Shown in pieces: positions 21,351 to 31,649 of a DNA stretch of 64,000 bases (its first letter is position 1; the number at the start of each line of letters is the position of its first letter). Source of the stretch: Bryobacterales bacterium (GTDB lineage: Bacteria; Acidobacteriota; Terriglobia; Bryobacterales; Bryobacteraceae); assembly GCA_003166865.1 (NCBI GenBank), contig PMUP01000088.1, positions 75,983 through 139,982 on the forward strand, read 5' to 3'. The position numbers and the translations under genes were made by a program. The notes below the pieces were generated by a model. It did no database searches, was not told the origin of the DNA, and saw only the letters and a list, made by a program, of their open reading frames with translations.

Positions 21351-22322
21351 ATGCCCGACATCCTGAGCGTGATCGCGAAGTATGGCTACCAGAGCCTGTT
21401 CGCCGCCATGTTCCTGGAAGCTATCGGCTTGCCTGTACCGGCCGCGCTAGCCTTACTGGCTGCGGGCGCTGCGTCGGCAGCGGGTGTGATGCATCCGGCC
21501 CTGGCGTTGGCGGTAGCCGCGATTGCGATGCTCACTGGTGACATCATCCTCTTCTTGGCCGGCCGTCGCATGGGCTGGAGCCTGCTCGGCTTTTTGTGCG
21601 GCCTTTCGCTCAGTCCGGAAGTATGCATCCTGCGTGCAGCCAAGTGGTTCTATAAGCGCGGGCGCACCACGCTGCTGTTCGCGAAATTCATTCCCGGCGT
21701 CGGTTCCATGGCGCCTCCGCTGGCTGGCAGCATGAACATGCGTCCTGCGCAGTTCTTGCGATTCGATCTGGGTGGGGCGTTGCTCTACACGCTTGCCTAC
21801 GGAGGGCTGGGCTACCTGTTTCGCGATGTGTTCCGTTTGATCGCTGGAGGGTTGCAAGCTTTTAGTCGCGCCGTGGCCTGGGTGGTTTTCATCGGCGTCA
21901 TCGGATTCATCGGATACCGGGCGTGGCTCTACGGAAGATATCGGCTCACCCGATTCGTTCGAAGGGTTCCGGTGGGAGACGTCGAGGCGCGTCTCAAACT
22001 GGAAGGTGCGCCGGACATCATCATCGCCGACGTGCGCAGCCACGGTTACTATGACGAGGGCGAGCAACGAGTGCTGGGCTCGATCCGCATCGAGCCGAAC
22101 AATCTGGATGCTTTCATCGAGACGCTGCCGAAGGACACGCCCATCTATCTTTACTGCACTTGACTGCGCGAAGCCACTAGCGCCCGTGTGGCGCACATCT
22201 TGCGGGAAAAGGGATTCGACGCCTATGTGATCGCGGGTGGATTGCGAGCCTGGCGCAGGGCCGGATATCCGCTGGAAGCAGTGCCCAAGGAAGATCTGGA
22301 ATTGTTGCCGCGCTTCGATTAA
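21351..22322 (+). CDS. DedA-rhodanese fusion with in-frame TGA at the catalytic Cys (candidate selenoprotein)
   Basis: A DedA/SNARE-associated membrane domain (about residues 1-195; FLEAIGLPVPAALALLAAG, GRRMGW, KFIPGVGSMAPPLAGSM) fused to a C-terminal rhodanese domain. The frame meets TGA at 22161-22163 (codon 271) and then continues open to TAA at 22320. The residues across it read IYLYCT-(TGA)-LREATSARVAHIL, followed by the normal rhodanese end VIAGGLRAWRRAGYPLE. Homologues of this fusion typically have Cys-x-Cys there, so TGA stands at the expected catalytic cysteine. A hairpin lies just downstream. Readings as Sec insertion, a nonsense mutation or an assembly error are all possible; the intact downstream frame favours Sec. 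It acts at the membrane, probably in persulfide or thiol chemistry. Confidence 0.72.
22165..22195 (+). promoter_or_regulatory. SECIS-like hairpin downstream of the in-frame TGA
   Basis: GCCAC (22173-22177) pairs with GTGGC (22188-22192) around a 10-nt loop TAGCGCCCGT. TGC (22165-22167) can pair with GCA (22193-22195) below a 5-nt 5' bulge. The loop starts 14 nt after the TGA, close to the bacterial SECIS range. The expected loop G is third rather than first or second, so this is only a weak match by eye. Confidence 0.35.
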
Positions 22323-24074: not shown

Positions 24075-25838
24075 GTGCACGTGAGAGGCGCAGCAACCGC
24101 GGCTCTACTGCTGTTTGGCGGAATCTCTGGACTCGATTCTTTGGGTCAGCCTCCCGCCAATCAGCATGCGCCCGAGATGTCTTCACACGACGCGCCGGCC
24201 ACCTTCAGCACGAAAGTGAATCTGGTGATGGTCCCGGTGGTGGTTCGAGATGCGAAGGGGAAGGCGATCGGAACGCTGCAGAAGGGAGACTTCCAGCTCT
24301 TCGACAAGGGCAAGCCGCAGGTGATCTCCAAATTCTCGGTGGAGAAGGCCGGCGAGGCGGTGATTCCGGCGGAAGTGGCCACCGACGATGCCGCGCTCGA
24401 AAACGCGGCTGCGGCAACCGCGGCGGCCAAAGCACCTGCTCCGATCGCGCAGCGGTTTGTCATCTACCTATTTGACGATGTTCATACCAGCACGGCGGAT
24501 TTGATCCAAGTTCGCAACGCGGCTGATCGCCATTTGACTGAAACTCTGGATGCCACCACGCGCGCCGCCATCTTCACCAGTTCAGGGCAGGGCAGCCTGG
24601 ATTTCACCGATGACCGCGTGAAATTGCACGAGGCCTTGCTGAAACTGATGTCGCGGCCAACCATCGGAGGACTGGGAAGGGAGTGCCCGGACATCAGCTA
24701 CTACACGGCCGATCTGATCCAAAACAAGAACGACCCGACGGCTTTGCAGACAGCAGCCGCGGAGGTTCTGGCAACCTGCGACCCGCCGCCTCCCGGCCAA
24801 TCGGCCCAGCAGGCCATGCAGGCTGCCGAAATCGTTGTGCGGGCCACGGCGTCCAATGTACTTAGCCTTGGTGACCGCGACGCGCGCCTGGCACTTACGG
24901 TGTTGGAGGATGCGATTCGCCGCCTCAAGGCGGCCCCGGGCGACCGGAGCTTGATCTTCGTTTCTCCTGGTGTTTTCCTCACTGACGATCTGCGCCAGGA
25001 AGAGACCGACATCATGGACCGCGCAATTCGCGCCAATGTGCGAATCAGTTCGCTGAATGCACGCGGGCTTTATGCGGTCGTCCCCGGGGGCGACGCAAGC
25101 ACACCCAGTACACAAGGCGGTCAGGCGGTGATGAATGCCAAGGCGCAATATCAGCGCGAGAGCGCGATCGCGGAAGAGGGAATCATGGAGGAACTGGCGG
25201 ATGCGACGGGCGGCCGGTACTTCCACAACAATAATGACTTGAAAGCGGGCTTCGGCCAGGTGGCTGCAGCTCCGGAGTTTGTTTATGTGCTGGGATTTTC
25301 GCCGCAGAACTTGAAGCTGGACGGGGCCTATCACGCTCTCAAGGTTAAGCTGACGAATTCGCACGGCCTGGATTTACAGGCGCGGCGCGGATATTATGCC
25401 CCCAAGCACTTGCCCGATCCGGCGGAGGACGCCAAGCGGGAAATCCAAGAGGCGTTATTTTCGCGGGACGAACTGCAGGATATTCCGGTGGAATTGCACA
25501 TGCAATTCTTCAAGTCCAGCGATATCGCTGCCAAGATCGCCGTGCTGGCGCGCGTGAATCTGAAGAATCTTCACTTCCGCAAGGCGGACGGGCGCAACAA
25601 CGACAACCTGACGGTCCTTACGGGCGTATTCGACCGGAACGGAAACTACATCAGCGGCGTCGAAAAGATACTTGAGTTGCGTCTGCTGGATCCAACACTC
25701 GATAAGCTGCTGAATTCGGGAGTTACCGTGAGGACGAACTTCGACGTGGCGCCCGGGAGCTATGTAATCCGGCTGGTGGTGCGTGATTCGGAAGGACAGA
25801 ACATGGCGGCGCGCAACGGAGTCGTCGAGATTCCCTGA
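24075..25838 (+). CDS. secreted VWFA-related protein, tandem copy 1
   Basis: 587 aa, GTG start, with a short hydrophobic signal sequence (AATAALLLFGGISGL). It belongs to the acidobacterial 'VWFA-related domain' family (TIGR03436 type). It has an N-terminal beta domain (VNLVMVPVVVRDAKGKAIGTL, DFQLFDKGKPQ) and a VWFA-like fold starting FVIYLFDDVHTS, in which the metal-site Asp-x-Ser-x-Ser is not canonical. A Cys-containing insertion ECPDISYYTADL comes next, then the family end block FVYVLGFSPQNLKLDG (GaTghYHxLkV type) and a C-terminal beta region. The stop overlaps the start of copy 2 (TGATG). The role is unknown; it is probably extracellular or outer-surface binding. Confidence 0.9.
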   Translation: MHVRGAATAALLLFGGISGLDSLGQPPANQHAPEMSSHDAPATFSTKVNLVMVPVVVRDAKGKAIGTLQKGDFQLFDKGKPQVISKFSVEKAGEAVIPAEVATDDAALENAAAATAAAKAPAPIAQRFVIYLFDDVHTSTADLIQVRNAADRHLTETLDATTRAAIFTSSGQGSLDFTDDRVKLHEALLKLMSRPTIGGLGRECPDISYYTADLIQNKNDPTALQTAAAEVLATCDPPPPGQSAQQAMQAAEIVVRATASNVLSLGDRDARLALTVLEDAIRRLKAAPGDRSLIFVSPGVFLTDDLRQEETDIMDRAIRANVRISSLNARGLYAVVPGGDASTPSTQGGQAVMNAKAQYQRESAIAEEGIMEELADATGGRYFHNNNDLKAGFGQVAAAPEFVYVLGFSPQNLKLDGAYHALKVKLTNSHGLDLQARRGYYAPKHLPDPAEDAKREIQEALFSRDELQDIPVELHMQFFKSSDIAAKIAVLARVNLKNLHFRKADGRNNDNLTVLTGVFDRNGNYISGVEKILELRLLDPTLDKLLNSGVTVRTNFDVAPGSYVIRLVVRDSEGQNMAARNGVVEIP

Positions 25839-27415
25839 TGGAAGCCCCAATGCACGTAAGAGGCGCAGTAGTCGCGGCTCTACTGCTGAGTGGCGCAATT
25901 TCTGGGCGCGGCCAGGCTCCTCAGAATACGCTCCAGCAGAATGCACCCGAGATGTCTTCGCATGACGCGGCGTCCACGTTCAGCACGAAGGTGAACCTGG
26001 TGATGGTCCCGGTGGTGGTTCGAGATGCGAAGGGGAAGGCGATCGGAACGCTGCAGAAGGAAGACTTCCAGCTCTTCGACAAGGGCAAGCCGCAGGTGAT
26101 CTCGAAATTCTCGGTGGAGAAGGCGGGCGAGGCGGTGATTCCGGCGGAGGTGGCCACCGACGATGCCGCGATCGAAAACGCGGCTGGGGCAACCGCGGCA
26201 AGCAAAACACCTGCTCCGATCGCTCAGCGGTTTGTCATTTACCTATTTGATGATGTGCATACCAGCATCAGGGATTTGATCCAAGTTCGCGAAGCCGCTG
26301 ATCGTCACTTATCCGAATCGCTGGATGCCACCACGCGCACCGCCATCTTCACCACCTCGGGGCTAGGCAACTTGGATTTTACCGACGACCGTCAGAAATT
26401 GCATGCAGCCCTGCTGAAACTGATGTCGCGGCCAATACTCGCCCTAGGTGACCTCGACAGGCGCCTGGTACTTATAGCGTTGGAGGATTCGATCCGCCGG
26501 CTTGCCGCGGTTCCTGGCGATCGGTCCTTGCTTTTGGTCTCGCCCGGATTTGGTGTCCCTGATCATCTGCGCCAGGAAGAGACAGACATGATCGATCGCG
26601 CGCTTCGCGCCAATGTGAGAATCAGCTCGCTGGATGCGCGCGGGCTTTATACCATCATTCCGGGGGGCGACGCGAGCACACCCAGTACACAAGGTGGTCG
26701 GTTGAAAGTGATCACCAAGATGCAACAGCAAATGGATACTGCGATGGCGCAAGAAGGAGTCCTGGAAGAACTCCCGGACGCGACGGGCGGCCTGTACTTT
26801 CACAACAATAATGACCTGGAAGGTGGGTTCGCGCAGGTGGCCGCCGCTCCGGAGTTTGTTTACGTGCTGGGATTTTCGCCGCAGAACTTGAAGCTGGATG
26901 GGGCCTATCACGCGCTCAAAGTGAAGCTGGTAACTGCGCCCGGTCTGGATCTACAGGCGCGGCACGGATATTATGCCCCCAGGCGCTTGCCCGATCCGGC
27001 GGAGGACGCCAAGCGGGAGATCCAAGAAGCGCTATTTTCGCGGGACGAACTGCAGGACATTCCGGTGGAATTGCACATGCAATTCTTCAAGTCCAGCGAT
27101 ATCGCTGCCAAGATCGCCGTGCTGGCGCGGGTGAATCTGCAGAGTCTTCACTTCCGCAAGGAGAACGGGCGCAACAACGACAACCTGACGGTGCTTGCGG
27201 GTGTGTTCGACCGCAATGGAAACTACATCAGCGGCGTCGAACAGATACTTGAGTTGCGTCTGCTGGATCCAACACTCGAGAAGCTGCTGAATTCGGGAGT
27301 TACCGTGAGGACGAACTTCGACGTGGCGCCCGGGAGCTATGTAATCCGGCTGGTGGTGCGTGATTCGGAAGGACAGAACATGGCGGCGCGCAACGGCGTC
27401 GTCGAGATTCCCTGA
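25838..27415 (+). CDS. secreted VWFA-related protein, tandem copy 2 (internally deleted)
   Basis: 525 aa; starts at ATG 25838, or at the second Met (25850), which aligns with the starts of copies 1 and 3. It is the same protein as its neighbours, but about 70 residues covering the Cys-containing ECPD segment and its low-complexity linker are missing, so MSRPILALGD joins directly to the LxxLxDxIRRL helix. It has no promoter of its own, since the start shares a base with the previous stop. The C-terminal half is almost identical to copies 1 and 3. Confidence 0.88.
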   Translation: MEAPMHVRGAVVAALLLSGAISGRGQAPQNTLQQNAPEMSSHDAASTFSTKVNLVMVPVVVRDAKGKAIGTLQKEDFQLFDKGKPQVISKFSVEKAGEAVIPAEVATDDAAIENAAGATAASKTPAPIAQRFVIYLFDDVHTSIRDLIQVREAADRHLSESLDATTRTAIFTTSGLGNLDFTDDRQKLHAALLKLMSRPILALGDLDRRLVLIALEDSIRRLAAVPGDRSLLLVSPGFGVPDHLRQEETDMIDRALRANVRISSLDARGLYTIIPGGDASTPSTQGGRLKVITKMQQQMDTAMAQEGVLEELPDATGGLYFHNNNDLEGGFAQVAAAPEFVYVLGFSPQNLKLDGAYHALKVKLVTAPGLDLQARHGYYAPRRLPDPAEDAKREIQEALFSRDELQDIPVELHMQFFKSSDIAAKIAVLARVNLQSLHFRKENGRNNDNLTVLAGVFDRNGNYISGVEQILELRLLDPTLEKLLNSGVTVRTNFDVAPGSYVIRLVVRDSEGQNMAARNGVVEIP

Positions 27416-27455
27416 CGGCGCCGGCGTATTTAACACGTTCCAGCGAAAAATGCAG

Positions 27456-27461
27456 TAGAAT
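27456..27461 (+). promoter_or_regulatory. probable -10 box (TAGAAT) of VWFA copy 3
   Basis: Part of GAAAAATGCAGTAGAATT, the duplicate of the box before copy 1. An AGGAG Shine-Dalgarno sequence lies at 27474-27478, 11 nt before the GTG at 27490. Confidence 0.4.
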
Positions 27462-27489
27462 TGTCCTCCAGTAGAGGAGTTGTTCCCAA

Positions 27490-29376
27490 GTGCAAGTCAG
27501 AGGCGCAGCAGCCGCGGCTCTACTGCTGTTTGGCATAATTTCCGGGCTCGAGACTCGTGGCCAGGCTCCCGTCGCGACTCAGAATACGCCCCAGCAGAAC
27601 GCGCCGGAGATGTCTTCGCACGACGCGCCTGCCACGTTCAGCACGAAAGTGAACCTGGTGATGGTTCCGGTGGTGGTTCGCGATGCGAAAGGGAAAGCGA
27701 TTGGGACGCTGCAGAAGGAAGACTTCCAGCTCTTCGACAAGGGCAAGCCGCAGGTGATCACGAGGTTCTCGGTGGAGAAGGCCGGCGAGGCGGTGATTCC
27801 GGCGGAGGTGGCCACCGACGATGTCGCGCTCCAGAACGCGGGTGCGCCTTCGGCCGTGGCCAGACCGGCGTCCGCGATCGCGCAGCGATTTGTCATCTAC
27901 TTATTCGATGACGTCCATCTGAAAACCCAGGATTTGATCCAAGCTCGCGACGCCGCCGATCGCCATTTGACTGAAACTCTGGATGCCACCACGCGCGCCG
28001 CCATCTTCACCACTTCGGGGCAGGGCAACCTGGATTTCACCGACGATCGCGTGAAATTGCACGAGGCGCTGATGAAGCTGATGTCGCGGCCCAACATGCT
28101 GGCGGCGGGATCGGAGTGCCCGGACCTCAGCTACTACATGGCCGATCTGATCGTGAACAAGAATGACGCGCAGGCATTGCAGGCGGCGGCCACGGAGGTG
28201 TTGCAAACCTGTGCACCGCCACAGACGCCAACTCCCCCGCCGCCATCGGGCAAAGGAGCAGCAGCCCAAGCGGCCGCACAAGCGGCCCAGCAACAGGCCC
28301 AGCAGGCTCTTCAAACCGCGCAGAGCGTTGCGCAGTCCACGGCTAGTCGCGTTCTCAACCTGGGTGAGCGCGACACGCGCCTGGTACTTACGGTATTGGA
28401 AGACGCGATCCGGCGGCTTCTCGCGGCTCCGGGTGATCGAAGCTTGGTCTTCGTCTCCTCCGGAGTTTTCCTCACTGACGATCTGCGCCAGGAAGAGACG
28501 GACATCATGGACCGCGCGATTCGCGCCAATGTCAGGATCAGCTCGCTGAACGGGCGAGGACTCTATACGGTCATTCCGGGGGGTGACGCGAGCACACCCA
28601 GTTCGGCCGGTGGTCCGCACGTCATGAACTTGAAAGCGCAATACGATCGCCAAAGCACGATCGCGGAAGAAGGAATCATGGCGGAATTGGCGGATGCGAC
28701 AGGCGGCCGCTACTTCCACGACAATAATGACTTGAAGGCTGGCTTCGGGGAGGTGGCGGCGGCTCCGGAGTTCGTTTATGTGCTGGGATTTTCGCCGCAG
28801 AACTTGAAGTTGGACGGGACCTATCACGCGCTCAAAGTTACGCTAATAACTTCGCACGGCCTGGATCTCCAAGCGCGGCGCGGATATTATGCGCCGAAGC
28901 ATCTGGCCGATCCCGAAGAGGACGCCAAGCGGGAAATCCAAGAGGCGTTGTTTTCGCGGGACGAAGTGCAGGATATCCCGGTCGAATTGCACATGCAATT
29001 CTTCAAGTCCAGCGATATCGCGGCCAAGATCGCCGTGCTGGCGCGCGTGAATCTGAAGAATCTTCACTTCCGCAAGGCGGACGGGCGCAACAACGACAAC
29101 CTGACGGTCCTTACGGGCGTATTCGACCGGAACGGAAACTACATCAGCGGCGTCGAAAAGATACTTGAGTTGCGTCTGCTGGATCCAACACTCGATAAGC
29201 TGCTGAATTCGGGAGTTACCGTGAGGACGAACTTCGATGTGGCGCCCGGGAAACTATGTGATCCGGCTGGTAGTGCGGGATTCGGAAGGACAGACCATGG
29301 CGGCGCGCAACGGCGTCGTCGAGATTCCCTGATGCAGTTTTTGCTGCTAAATTTCTTGGTGGAGGTGCGATCGTGA
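27490..29376 (+). CDS. secreted VWFA-related protein, tandem copy 3, frameshifted C-terminus
   Basis: 628 aa as read; GTG start with signal sequence. The layout is that of copy 1, with an expanded linker (TPTPPPPSGKGAAAQ then Gln/Ala-rich) after the second cysteine. Compared with copies 1 and 2, one A is added at 29251-29253 (GGGAAACTATG against GGGAGCTATG). After NFDVAPG the frame therefore leaves the family ending (SYVIRLVVRDSEGQN...) and reads into an unrelated tail ending at 29376, overlapping the next gene. The normal ending survives in the +1 frame and would stop near 29332. It is a real mutation or a sequencing error. Confidence 0.85.
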   Translation: MQVRGAAAAALLLFGIISGLETRGQAPVATQNTPQQNAPEMSSHDAPATFSTKVNLVMVPVVVRDAKGKAIGTLQKEDFQLFDKGKPQVITRFSVEKAGEAVIPAEVATDDVALQNAGAPSAVARPASAIAQRFVIYLFDDVHLKTQDLIQARDAADRHLTETLDATTRAAIFTTSGQGNLDFTDDRVKLHEALMKLMSRPNMLAAGSECPDLSYYMADLIVNKNDAQALQAAATEVLQTCAPPQTPTPPPPSGKGAAAQAAAQAAQQQAQQALQTAQSVAQSTASRVLNLGERDTRLVLTVLEDAIRRLLAAPGDRSLVFVSSGVFLTDDLRQEETDIMDRAIRANVRISSLNGRGLYTVIPGGDASTPSSAGGPHVMNLKAQYDRQSTIAEEGIMAELADATGGRYFHDNNDLKAGFGEVAAAPEFVYVLGFSPQNLKLDGTYHALKVTLITSHGLDLQARRGYYAPKHLADPEEDAKREIQEALFSRDEVQDIPVELHMQFFKSSDIAAKIAVLARVNLKNLHFRKADGRNNDNLTVLTGVFDRNGNYISGVEKILELRLLDPTLDKLLNSGVTVRTNFDVAPGKLCDPAGSAGFGRTDHGGAQRRRRDSLMQFLLLNFLVEVRS

Positions 29377-31649
29377 ATTCTAAGCGCATGATTGGTTTCG
29401 CCGCGCTGCTCGCGCTGGCGGCTGTTTATCCGGTGGCCCGCGCGCAAGCTCAGGCCGACTCGGGAGGCGTGATCCGCACCGAGACCAAACTGGTTCTCGT
29501 GGATACGGTGGTCACCGACAAGAAGGGGAGCTACGTCCGCGACCTCACCGCCAAGGAGTTCAAGGTTTGGGAAGACGGCAAGGAGCAGACCATCAAGAGC
29601 TTCTCGTCGGAATCCGATCCGGCCTCGGGCCCGAATCAAAAACATTACCTGGTGCTGTTGTTCGACAACTCGACGCTGGGCTTCGGCGATCAGGCCCGGG
29701 CCCGGCAGGCGGCGGCAAAATTCATCGAGTCCAACGGCGGGCCGAACCGGATGATGGCGATCGCCAATTTCGGGGGCGCTTTACAAATCGCTCAGAACTT
29801 CACCGACGATACCGAGCGGCTCAAGAACGTCGTGAACGGCGTCAAATTCTCGGCGGTGGCTCCCAACGCATCGGACGCGAACGCCCCGCAGCTCAGCACA
29901 GCCATGGCGAGCTTTGGAGCGCGCGACGTGCTGTATGCTTTGACGGATCTCGCCAAGGGACTCAGCTCGGTGCCCGGCCGCAAGACACTGATCCTGATTA
30001 CCGCAGGCTTTCCGCTCACCCCGGAGATTATGTCTGAAGCCACCGCTGTGATCAGCACTTGCAATAAGGCGAACGTCGCTATTTATCCGATCGACGTGCG
30101 TGGGCTTATGGCGGCGACGCCCGTGGCCAGCTTGCGTCCTCTCAATGCAGGCGCACGTTTCGTGACGGTCGCGTATCAGCCGGGTGGCATGGCTTTCTTC
30201 CTGCCGCAACACAGTGGTGGCGGCGGAGGCGGGACCGGTGGCAGTGGCGGGACTGGTGGCGCCGGCGGCGCTGGCGGCGCTGGCGGCGCTGGCGGCGGTG
30301 GAGGCGGCGGTCATTCGGGCGGGGGGACAGGTTCTCCCGGCCACGGAACAAGCGGAACAAACGGAGCGACCGGAACACGCGGGCCCGGAGCGACCAACCC
30401 TTTGAACCCTTGTGCGGGCAACTCGCCCATGGCGGGTGGAGGCACCTCGTCCATTTCGCCCGGCTCGAGTCCTGGCTGTCAATCCCGCCAGATGATTCCG
30501 CCATTGCCCGATGGCACCACCACGAATCAGAACATCATGTTCATGCTGGCGGGAGGCACGGGCGGCTTCGTCATCCACGAGACCAACGATTTGCTCGGCG
30601 GAATGGAGAAGATCGGCAAGGATCAAAATGAATATTACCTCCTCGGCTACACGCCTCCAGAATCGGAAGAGGGAAGCTGTCACAGCCTGAAGGTCAAGGT
30701 GGATCGGGGAGGTACGGAAGTACGCGCGCGGACCGGCTATTGCAACTCGAAGCCTGTGGATCTGCTGGCGGGTAACTCCACCGAGAAGAGTCTGGAGGCT
30801 CGCGCGGCGGCGTCGCAGGCGGGCGATGTCACCGGGTCGATGCAGCTCCCGTTTTTCTATATTTCGCCCAACGTGGCGCGGGTCAACGTGGCGATGGAGA
30901 TTGCCACCGGCGATCTGAAATTCGAAAAGGTGAAGGGCAAATTTCACGCCGCGATCAACGTTTTGGGCCTGGCCTATCTTCCGGACGGTTCGGTGGGGGC
31001 GCGCTTCAGCGATACCTTGAACCTGGATTTCGAGGACAAAAAGCAGGCGGAAGCGTTCAAAGAGAAACCGATGCACTACGAGAACCAGTTCGATGTGGCG
31101 TCGGGCAAGTACAACTTGAAAGTCGTGTATTCCTCCGGCGGCCAGAGCTTCGGAAAACTGGAAATGCCCCTGGTGGTGGATCCGTACGATGCGAAGCAAT
31201 TCAGCATGAGCGCCTTGGCGCTGAGCAAGGAGGTGCGCAAGGCATCCGATCTCGGAACAGGTTTGGACGCGCTGCTGCTGGCGGATCGCGTCCCGCTGAT
31301 CGCCGATGGCATGCAGTTGGTGCCCTACGGGTCCAATCATTTCAAGAAGACCGATTTGGCGGCTTTTTACATGGAGCTTTACGAGCCGCTGCTGGTGACT
31401 GGTGATCCAAAAACGCCGCCGGTCGTGGCGTTCCAGCTGCGCGTGTTGGACGGCAAGACGGGAGAGCAGAAGGAAGACACGGGACTGATCCGCGTGGGAC
31501 TACCTGCGCAAGCCGGCAGTCCAACGGTTCCGGTGGCGAGGAAAATACCCACCGAGTCTCTCAGTCCGGGTCCCTACAAGCTGGAGATCAAAGCAATGGA
31601 CGACGCGGGCAAGGAGTTCAAGCGCACCACCGACATTCAAATCGAATAG
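29373..31649 (+). CDS. secreted VWFA-related protein with Gly-rich segment, copy 4 (divergent)
   Basis: 758 aa, GTG start overlapping the previous frame by 4 bp, signal peptide MIGFAALLALAAVYPVARAQA. Same family but distant from copies 1-3: VLVDTVVTDKKGSYVRDLTAKEF, VWFA-like YLVLLFDNSTLGFG (DNST), then an ~65-residue Gly/Ser/Thr-rich stretch (about residues 275-345, coding 30210-30400) made of GGAGGAGG-type repeats inside the domain. The family block EYYLLGYTPPESEEGSCHSLKV follows, and a long C-terminal beta region not found in copies 1-3. It probably lies on the same transcript as copy 3. Confidence 0.9.
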   Translation: MNSKRMIGFAALLALAAVYPVARAQAQADSGGVIRTETKLVLVDTVVTDKKGSYVRDLTAKEFKVWEDGKEQTIKSFSSESDPASGPNQKHYLVLLFDNSTLGFGDQARARQAAAKFIESNGGPNRMMAIANFGGALQIAQNFTDDTERLKNVVNGVKFSAVAPNASDANAPQLSTAMASFGARDVLYALTDLAKGLSSVPGRKTLILITAGFPLTPEIMSEATAVISTCNKANVAIYPIDVRGLMAATPVASLRPLNAGARFVTVAYQPGGMAFFLPQHSGGGGGGTGGSGGTGGAGGAGGAGGAGGGGGGGHSGGGTGSPGHGTSGTNGATGTRGPGATNPLNPCAGNSPMAGGGTSSISPGSSPGCQSRQMIPPLPDGTTTNQNIMFMLAGGTGGFVIHETNDLLGGMEKIGKDQNEYYLLGYTPPESEEGSCHSLKVKVDRGGTEVRARTGYCNSKPVDLLAGNSTEKSLEARAAASQAGDVTGSMQLPFFYISPNVARVNVAMEIATGDLKFEKVKGKFHAAINVLGLAYLPDGSVGARFSDTLNLDFEDKKQAEAFKEKPMHYENQFDVASGKYNLKVVYSSGGQSFGKLEMPLVVDPYDAKQFSMSALALSKEVRKASDLGTGLDALLLADRVPLIADGMQLVPYGSNHFKKTDLAAFYMELYEPLLVTGDPKTPPVVAFQLRVLDGKTGEQKEDTGLIRVGLPAQAGSPTVPVARKIPTESLSPGPYKLEIKAMDDAGKEFKRTTDIQIE
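30210..30400 (+). repeat. GGCGGCGCT-type triplet repeats coding for poly-Gly/Ala
   Basis: Short tandem units of GGCGCTGGC and GGCGGT within the fourth VWFA gene, translated as Gly-Gly-Ala-Gly repeats. Such units are prone to slippage, so the length may vary between strains. Confidence 0.7.

Follow-up and report, generated by a model that had tools for sequence, protein, structure and literature searches.

C-x-U rhodaneses that carry selenocysteine (Sec) and fusions of DedA proteins to rhodanese domains are each known, and the Sec-containing fusion is unlisted among the 119 prokaryotic selenoprotein families and subfamilies tabulated in a 2026 review (PMC13188914). That table gives rhodanese forms 1 to 5, with form 3 having the CxU motif (rhodanese_LYCAU, NF041203; TKB26178.1 in Table 1), and the relevant section of a 2022 review also includes the CxU form (PMC9312934). 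No entry of the table combines DedA or VTT with a rhodanese, and the word DedA occurs nowhere in the main text of the 2026 review (PMC13188914), nor in the main texts of PMC1794560, PMC2398784, PMC9312934, PMC5029168 and PMC12013277. For the Acidobacteria, the relevant part of a 2006 survey reports four selenoproteins of three families (PMC1794560), and the part of the deep-Sep table considered here names one Acidobacteriota genome (PMC12013277). A literature search, with preprints and most subscription journals outside its scope, returned no report of a DedA/VTT-rhodanese selenoprotein.

Fusions of DedA to the thiosulfate sulfurtransferase GlpE are found in Burkholderiales and in Pseudomonas aeruginosa, where PA1209 is an example given in a passage of PMC12893004. 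The passages on DedA-rhodanese fusions in PMC10127716 and PMC12893004 contain no mention of Sec, and in the former the connection of the fusion to undecaprenyl phosphate (UndP) is called unclear.

The window, by which we mean the whole 64-kb stretch of DNA that was analysed, encodes a protein of this fused type. Its frame runs for 323 codons from an ATG at 21351 to a TAA at 22320-22322 and contains one internal TGA at 22161-22163 (residue 271). The following features were identified:

21351..22322, + strand: DedA(VTT)-rhodanese gene, very probably a selenoprotein gene; 323 aa, Sec at 271, TAA stop (reading frame, Pfam, homologues)
21453..21815, + strand: VTT/DedA membrane domain, residues 35-155 (Pfam match; AlphaFold2 helices)
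21597..21599, + strand: codon of C83, a conserved Cys in the DedA half (alignment)
21624..21626, + strand: codon of C92, the second conserved Cys of the DedA half (alignment)
22005..22259, + strand: rhodanese domain, residues 219-303 (Pfam match, Foldseek, phmmer)
22155..22157, + strand: codon of C269, at the usual rhodanese nucleophile position (phmmer alignment; Cys in 112/112 rows listed)
22161..22163, + strand: in-frame TGA, very probably read as Sec, U271 of C-x-U (homologue comparison, hairpin)
22180..22194, + strand: SECIS-like hairpin; stem 22180-22184 / 22190-22194, loop CGUGU at 22185-22189, UGA + 21 nt

A preliminary description had read the gene as an intact DedA and rhodanese pair apart from the TGA at 22161, and this agrees with the Pfam matches, both above cut-off: VTT_dom at residues 35-155 (34.0 bits; cut-off 33.9) and Rhodanese (PF00581) at residues 219-303 (36.1 bits; cut-off 22.2). 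The AlphaFold2 model (mean pLDDT 82.6), for which the window protein was aligned with 22 homologues, shows a membrane region of helices and a region resembling a rhodanese. Foldseek returned 333 PDB matches to this model; the 50 listed are all apparently rhodanese-fold entries, and none of these 50 matches the DedA half.

The domain order is that of the DedA/GlpE fusions. Eight plasmid-borne DedA/GlpE examples have C-x-C, so carry Cys rather than Sec, and seven of them have C83/C92. The C-x-U rhodanese is common to the window protein and form 3. NF041203, which is named '(seleno)protein', is the best NCBIfam match of the window protein at 84.7 bits, below the cut-off of 115; the model has 126 positions and the match begins at window residue 216, after the DedA domain. 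The two other DedA-rhodaneses scanned also fall below 115 (75.9 and 83.5 bits). Rhodanese selenoprotein forms 1, 2 and 4 (UxxS/UxxG; PMC13188914 Table 1) likewise have Sec in the rhodanese loop. TsoB (NF045694), rhodanese/DsbD fusion-like, is a Sec rhodanese fused to another domain, which its DsbD-like name suggests is a membrane domain. It differs from the window protein in its partner and in its motif (UxxxxU), and the window protein scores 13.6 bits against its cut-off of 805. Two other CxU rhodanese domains, L147 (CNUTKEATSAR) and L148 (CAUPNEATSAR), have no preceding DedA match in the search listing; the second sits in a 576-codon open frame.

The list of open reading frames contains a 270-aa ORF that stops at the TGA at 22161. 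Standard gene callers would truncate such copies at this codon to a shortened DedA protein. It had been argued that the frame stays open for a further 53 codons to TAA. This is true, but it is not rare by itself: 17 of the 43 TGA-terminated frames longer than 200 codons in the 64-kb window (both strands, with shadow frames and the DedA-rhodanese gene itself included) stay open for at least 53 codons past the TGA. We therefore rejected open-frame length as evidence for Sec and placed the weight on homology.

In 61 genomes (the window's own and 60 relatives), 26 matches to both domains were listed, of which 17 have an internal TGA, in every case at the same codon. At codon 271 the other nine have Cys (seven), Gly (L042) or Ser (L144). 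A wider scan (genome_contigs, 84,980 species) confirmed at least 566 relatives, of which the best 80 were kept; of the two search patterns used, one requires Cys at codon 271 and so is biased against Sec. Pooling these 80 with 24 rows of the 61-genome search (L143 and L144 lie outside the pool) gives 104 loci, with TGA in 66, Cys in 37 and Gly in one among the matches listed. By record title, most of the listed Sec loci are from Terriglobia, Acidobacteriaceae, Acidobacteria or Sulfotelmatobacter, and two are from Rokuibacteriota and Methylomirabilota (L119, L124). The nearest to the window protein among the matches listed, L064, is 57% identical. Within the window's clade, conservation continues past the TGA as far as the C-terminus.

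A tree of 111 rows has two deep starred clades, each with Sec and Cys members. One has mostly the motif C-x-[UC]-P-N-E, the other, which includes the window protein, mostly C-x-[UC]-x-R-E-A-T. The tree was made by a quick method with the residue-271 column left out; eight of the 111 rows are plasmid-borne and 39 of the 108 inner branches are open. It requires at least 11 U/C changes, and the starred branches force at least four changes of the Sec label. Sec and Cys have thus been swapped for each other repeatedly in DedA-rhodaneses, with no direction implied. Besides this gene, the window's own genome has a Cys-type DedA-rhodanese that belongs to the other clade (L002, YCACPGEF), and G018 has the reverse pairing, with a Cys copy (L023) in the window's clade and a Sec copy (L143), which lies outside the tree, assigned by motif to the other.

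The window's own genome (6.67 Mb, 107 contigs, 95.9% complete) encodes the machinery for Sec. We identified a tRNA-Sec above cut-off (68.2 bits; called tRNA-SeC, anticodon tca, by ARAGORN), as well as selB (375 bits), selA (505 bits) and selD (366 bits), each above cut-off. RF01852 has 10 matches in this genome. Besides the tRNA-Sec, one of them (L007, 47.5 bits) is above cut-off and is a tRNA-Ser by ARAGORN, so passing the RF01852 cut-off is by itself no proof of tRNA-Sec in other genomes. Across the 50 of 78 loci that were covered, selB is above cut-off in 19/21 Sec-type and 8/29 Cys-type genomes (Fisher 1e-5; among matches listed). The two remaining Sec-type genomes (G098 and G102) have selB in split pieces, and one further Cys-type genome (G068) has a 231-bit partial selB. 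Among close relatives there is no contrast, with selB above cut-off in 15 of 17 Sec and four of five Cys-only genomes. One Sec genome (G022) has no selB match above cut-off and a tRNA-Sec of 76.8 bits; another (G039, 64% complete) has a split selB and no tRNA-Sec above cut-off.

The hairpin GCGCC-CGUGU-GGCGC (22180-22194) begins 21 nt past the UGA. The bacterial SECIS model, as given in a section of PMC13188914, has a stem of 4-16 bp and a loop of 3-9 nt with G in its first two positions, lies 16-37 nt from the UGA and has an energy of at most -7.5 kcal/mol. Compared by hand, the window hairpin falls within these limits (5 bp, 5-nt loop, 21 nt, core energy -9.1 kcal/mol). Among the matches listed, the exact stem is present in 63/65 Sec genes and 4/36 Cys genes (Fisher 1.4e-19), and where the peptide SARVA is identical it is found in 53/53 Sec and 0/10 Cys genes (7.8e-12); these p-values are too strong, as the sequences are related. 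The exceptions are L108 and L110 among the Sec rows and the four Cys rows that have the stem; L097, a Sec row, is absent from the hairpin counts because of its short length, and the Cys row L103, a duplicate of L023, was dropped from these and from the tree. The second loop position is G in all 65 Sec genes listed, and the next base is G or U in 63. The stem is common to both clades, even though proteins of the other clade are only about 30-37% identical to the window protein.

Because the stem is almost invariant, synonymous codons were compared rather than covariation. With codons redrawn at the usage of each group, the 18-nt core folds more stably than its redrawn versions, with a mean z of -2.37 in Sec and -0.84 in Cys genes (Cys p 6e-5), and the excess in the Cys set indicates that the peptide itself favours a hairpin. 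The signal falls at 30 nt (z -1.28 against -0.44) and there is hardly any at 45 nt (-0.28 against -0.03). Compared with shuffles, only the 18-nt core of the window RNA stands out (z -2.0; 0.63 for 39 nt and -0.71 for 25 nt). Counted from the first base of the UGA, the core hairpin is in the best fold of the window RNA at 36, 38 and 48 nt, and another fold is best at 34 or 42 nt; in several Sec rows (e.g., L057, L058, L062, L066) the best 54-nt fold is without the core. For 54 nt, the only structure that RNAalifold predicted from 63 distinct Sec sequences was the 5-bp hairpin; from 36 Cys sequences it predicted none. An Rfam scan of the 64-kb window gave no family at the gathering score.

Taken together, the Sec machinery, the exchange of TGA and Cys at one codon, and a hairpin kept at synonymous sites strongly support the reading of 21351-22322 as a selenoprotein gene, which on this comparative evidence we consider very probable. 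The preliminary description had proposed a candidate selenoprotein with TGA at the second Cys of Cys-x-Cys. That proposal stands: the TGA falls on the second position of C-x-U (U271), over a third of the loci listed have Cys at this codon, the genome has selA, selB, selD and tRNA-Sec, and the downstream half shows no degeneration. The catalogue of selenoproteins would gain, from soil Acidobacteriota, one that resembles a membrane transporter.

It had also been claimed that the TGA replaces the catalytic Cys, and here the alignments point elsewhere. C269 aligns with the YC of the active-site loop in both domains of the solved rhodanese 6mxv (phmmer), although the window loop is two residues longer than that of 6mxv and alignments to Alr3790 place the loop differently. 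Cys at this loop position is the rhodanese nucleophile, and residue 269 is Cys in 112/112 aligned rows among the matches listed. The usual nucleophile position thus keeps its Cys, with Sec as the partner at +2. Stand-alone YURRGG forms are unlike the window protein in that Sec occupies the usual nucleophile position itself. Stand-alone rhodanese-like proteins with YURRGGRAS, resembling the known UxxG forms, were seen in the genomes of three relatives (L049, L145, L146).

The quartet C83, C92, C269 and C/U271 is complete in 109 of the 112 rows (66 Sec, 43 Cys; among matches listed, L103 included). The exceptions are L042 (Cys/Leu/Cys/Gly), L137 (Val/Thr/Cys/Cys) and L118, in which C83 is not covered. 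The C83/C92 pair is absent from the three other DedA paralogues examined in the window's own genome. Lys and Arg number eight in the stretch 71-113, which holds C83/C92, and six in the linker that leads to the rhodanese (190-210); the positive-inside rule would thus place the C83/C92 stretch and the rhodanese on the cytoplasmic side. A Cys pair in the DedA half alongside C-x-U suggests a membrane-side thiol/selenol relay. Against such a relay, L144 (outside the 112 rows) keeps C83, C92 and C269 although its residue 271 is Ser, L042 combines Gly at 271 with only C83 of the pair, and L137 keeps CxC without C83/C92.

If the relay operates, C269 would accept sulfane sulfur, or else an oxidised thiol, in the manner of rhodaneses, and U271 would resolve the C269 intermediate as a fast S-Se bridge. 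The C269/U271 pair would then exchange with C83/C92, which would receive the equivalents, and the DedA domain may move, or respond to, a substrate under redox or persulfide control. We regard this C269/U271 chemistry and exchange with C83/C92 as a real possibility, with somewhat less than an even chance of being right. Lipids and chalcogen compounds are candidate substrates, the former because of a polyprenyl synthase-like neighbour and the latter because of a link between DedA and selenite in the literature. The broader proposal is more tentative still: a new selenoprotein class, an integral-membrane chalcogen relay in which a C-x-Sec rhodanese hands a persulfide or selenyl-sulfide to a Cys pair on a DedA-type transporter, gating or driving transport. 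Such a class would be distributed across Acidobacteriota and would have traded places with Cys forms more than once. The four conserved Cys/Sec positions offer a handle on why DedA was joined to rhodanese, a link described as unclear in the passage on these fusions (PMC10127716).

A functional alternative, somewhat less likely than the relay, holds that the DedA half is an ordinary UndP flippase and the CxU rhodanese a separate, tethered sulfurtransferase. Rhodanese fusions fall within the COG0586 DedA subfamily, taken as UndP flippases in the relevant part of PMC10127716. The polyprenyl synthase-like ORF precedes the fusion gene in 36 of 81 loci (the best 80 of at least 566 and the window), although not in the window itself. 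Farther upstream in the same 81 loci are genes for DUF520 (35) and TatD (34); each of these neighbour families was named from one member, the polyprenyl synthase-like one by Pfam. Because the window's own neighbours differ (a TPR-like gene upstream, a DUF885 gene downstream), the conserved neighbourhood is a weak hint to function. E23, D64 and K112, whose correspondence to YghB numbering is our tentative reading, are present in 96, 111 and 112 of the 112 rows. In COG0586 UndP flippases, the first re-entrant helix carries acidic residues and the second a pair of basic ones; this basic pair is called essential (PMC10127716, in part). Position 118, which is Arg in two of the three DedA paralogues of the same genome, is N, S, G, A or D in all 112 rows. 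This, as it is never basic, makes a plain UndP-flippase role doubtful, and the presence of C83/C92 suggests that the two halves are coupled.

Less likely again is that the protein imports a selenium or sulfur compound for the cell, serving chalcogen uptake and delivery. One sentence of a review links a DedA protein to selenite in Ralstonia metallidurans, a link for which Ledgham 2005 is a further reference. In 21 of the 29 Cys-type genomes, however, selB is not found above cut-off, so supplying Sec cannot be what these proteins generally do.

As for how the UGA is decoded, it could be a true stop, with a 270-residue DedA protein as the product and the longer form minor or selenium-dependent. 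UGA decoding is often partial, and the Pfam VTT match ends ahead of the UGA. The truncated product would nevertheless end within the rhodanese active-site loop, and the protein sequence of the rhodanese C-terminus is conserved across the Sec genes; we consider this reading very improbable. That the TGA arose by nonsense mutation, or by a sequencing error, in an otherwise ordinary Cys-type DedA-rhodanese is refuted, unless dozens of assemblies share one error: Cys homologues do exist, one of them in the same genome, but the shared TGA codon recurs in many assemblies and the part after it is conserved, as the preliminary description had anticipated in calling a random mutation unlikely. A changed code in which UGA is read as Trp or Cys has nothing for it beyond the open frame and can be set aside, given the tRNA-Sec and SelABD of this genome and the use of TGA as terminal stop by the Sec-type loci L058, L063, L065 and L067.

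Downstream of the DedA-rhodanese gene, on the + strand at 24075-31649, is a run of four large ORFs that begins with three closely similar copies. These may encode VWFA-type secreted proteins.
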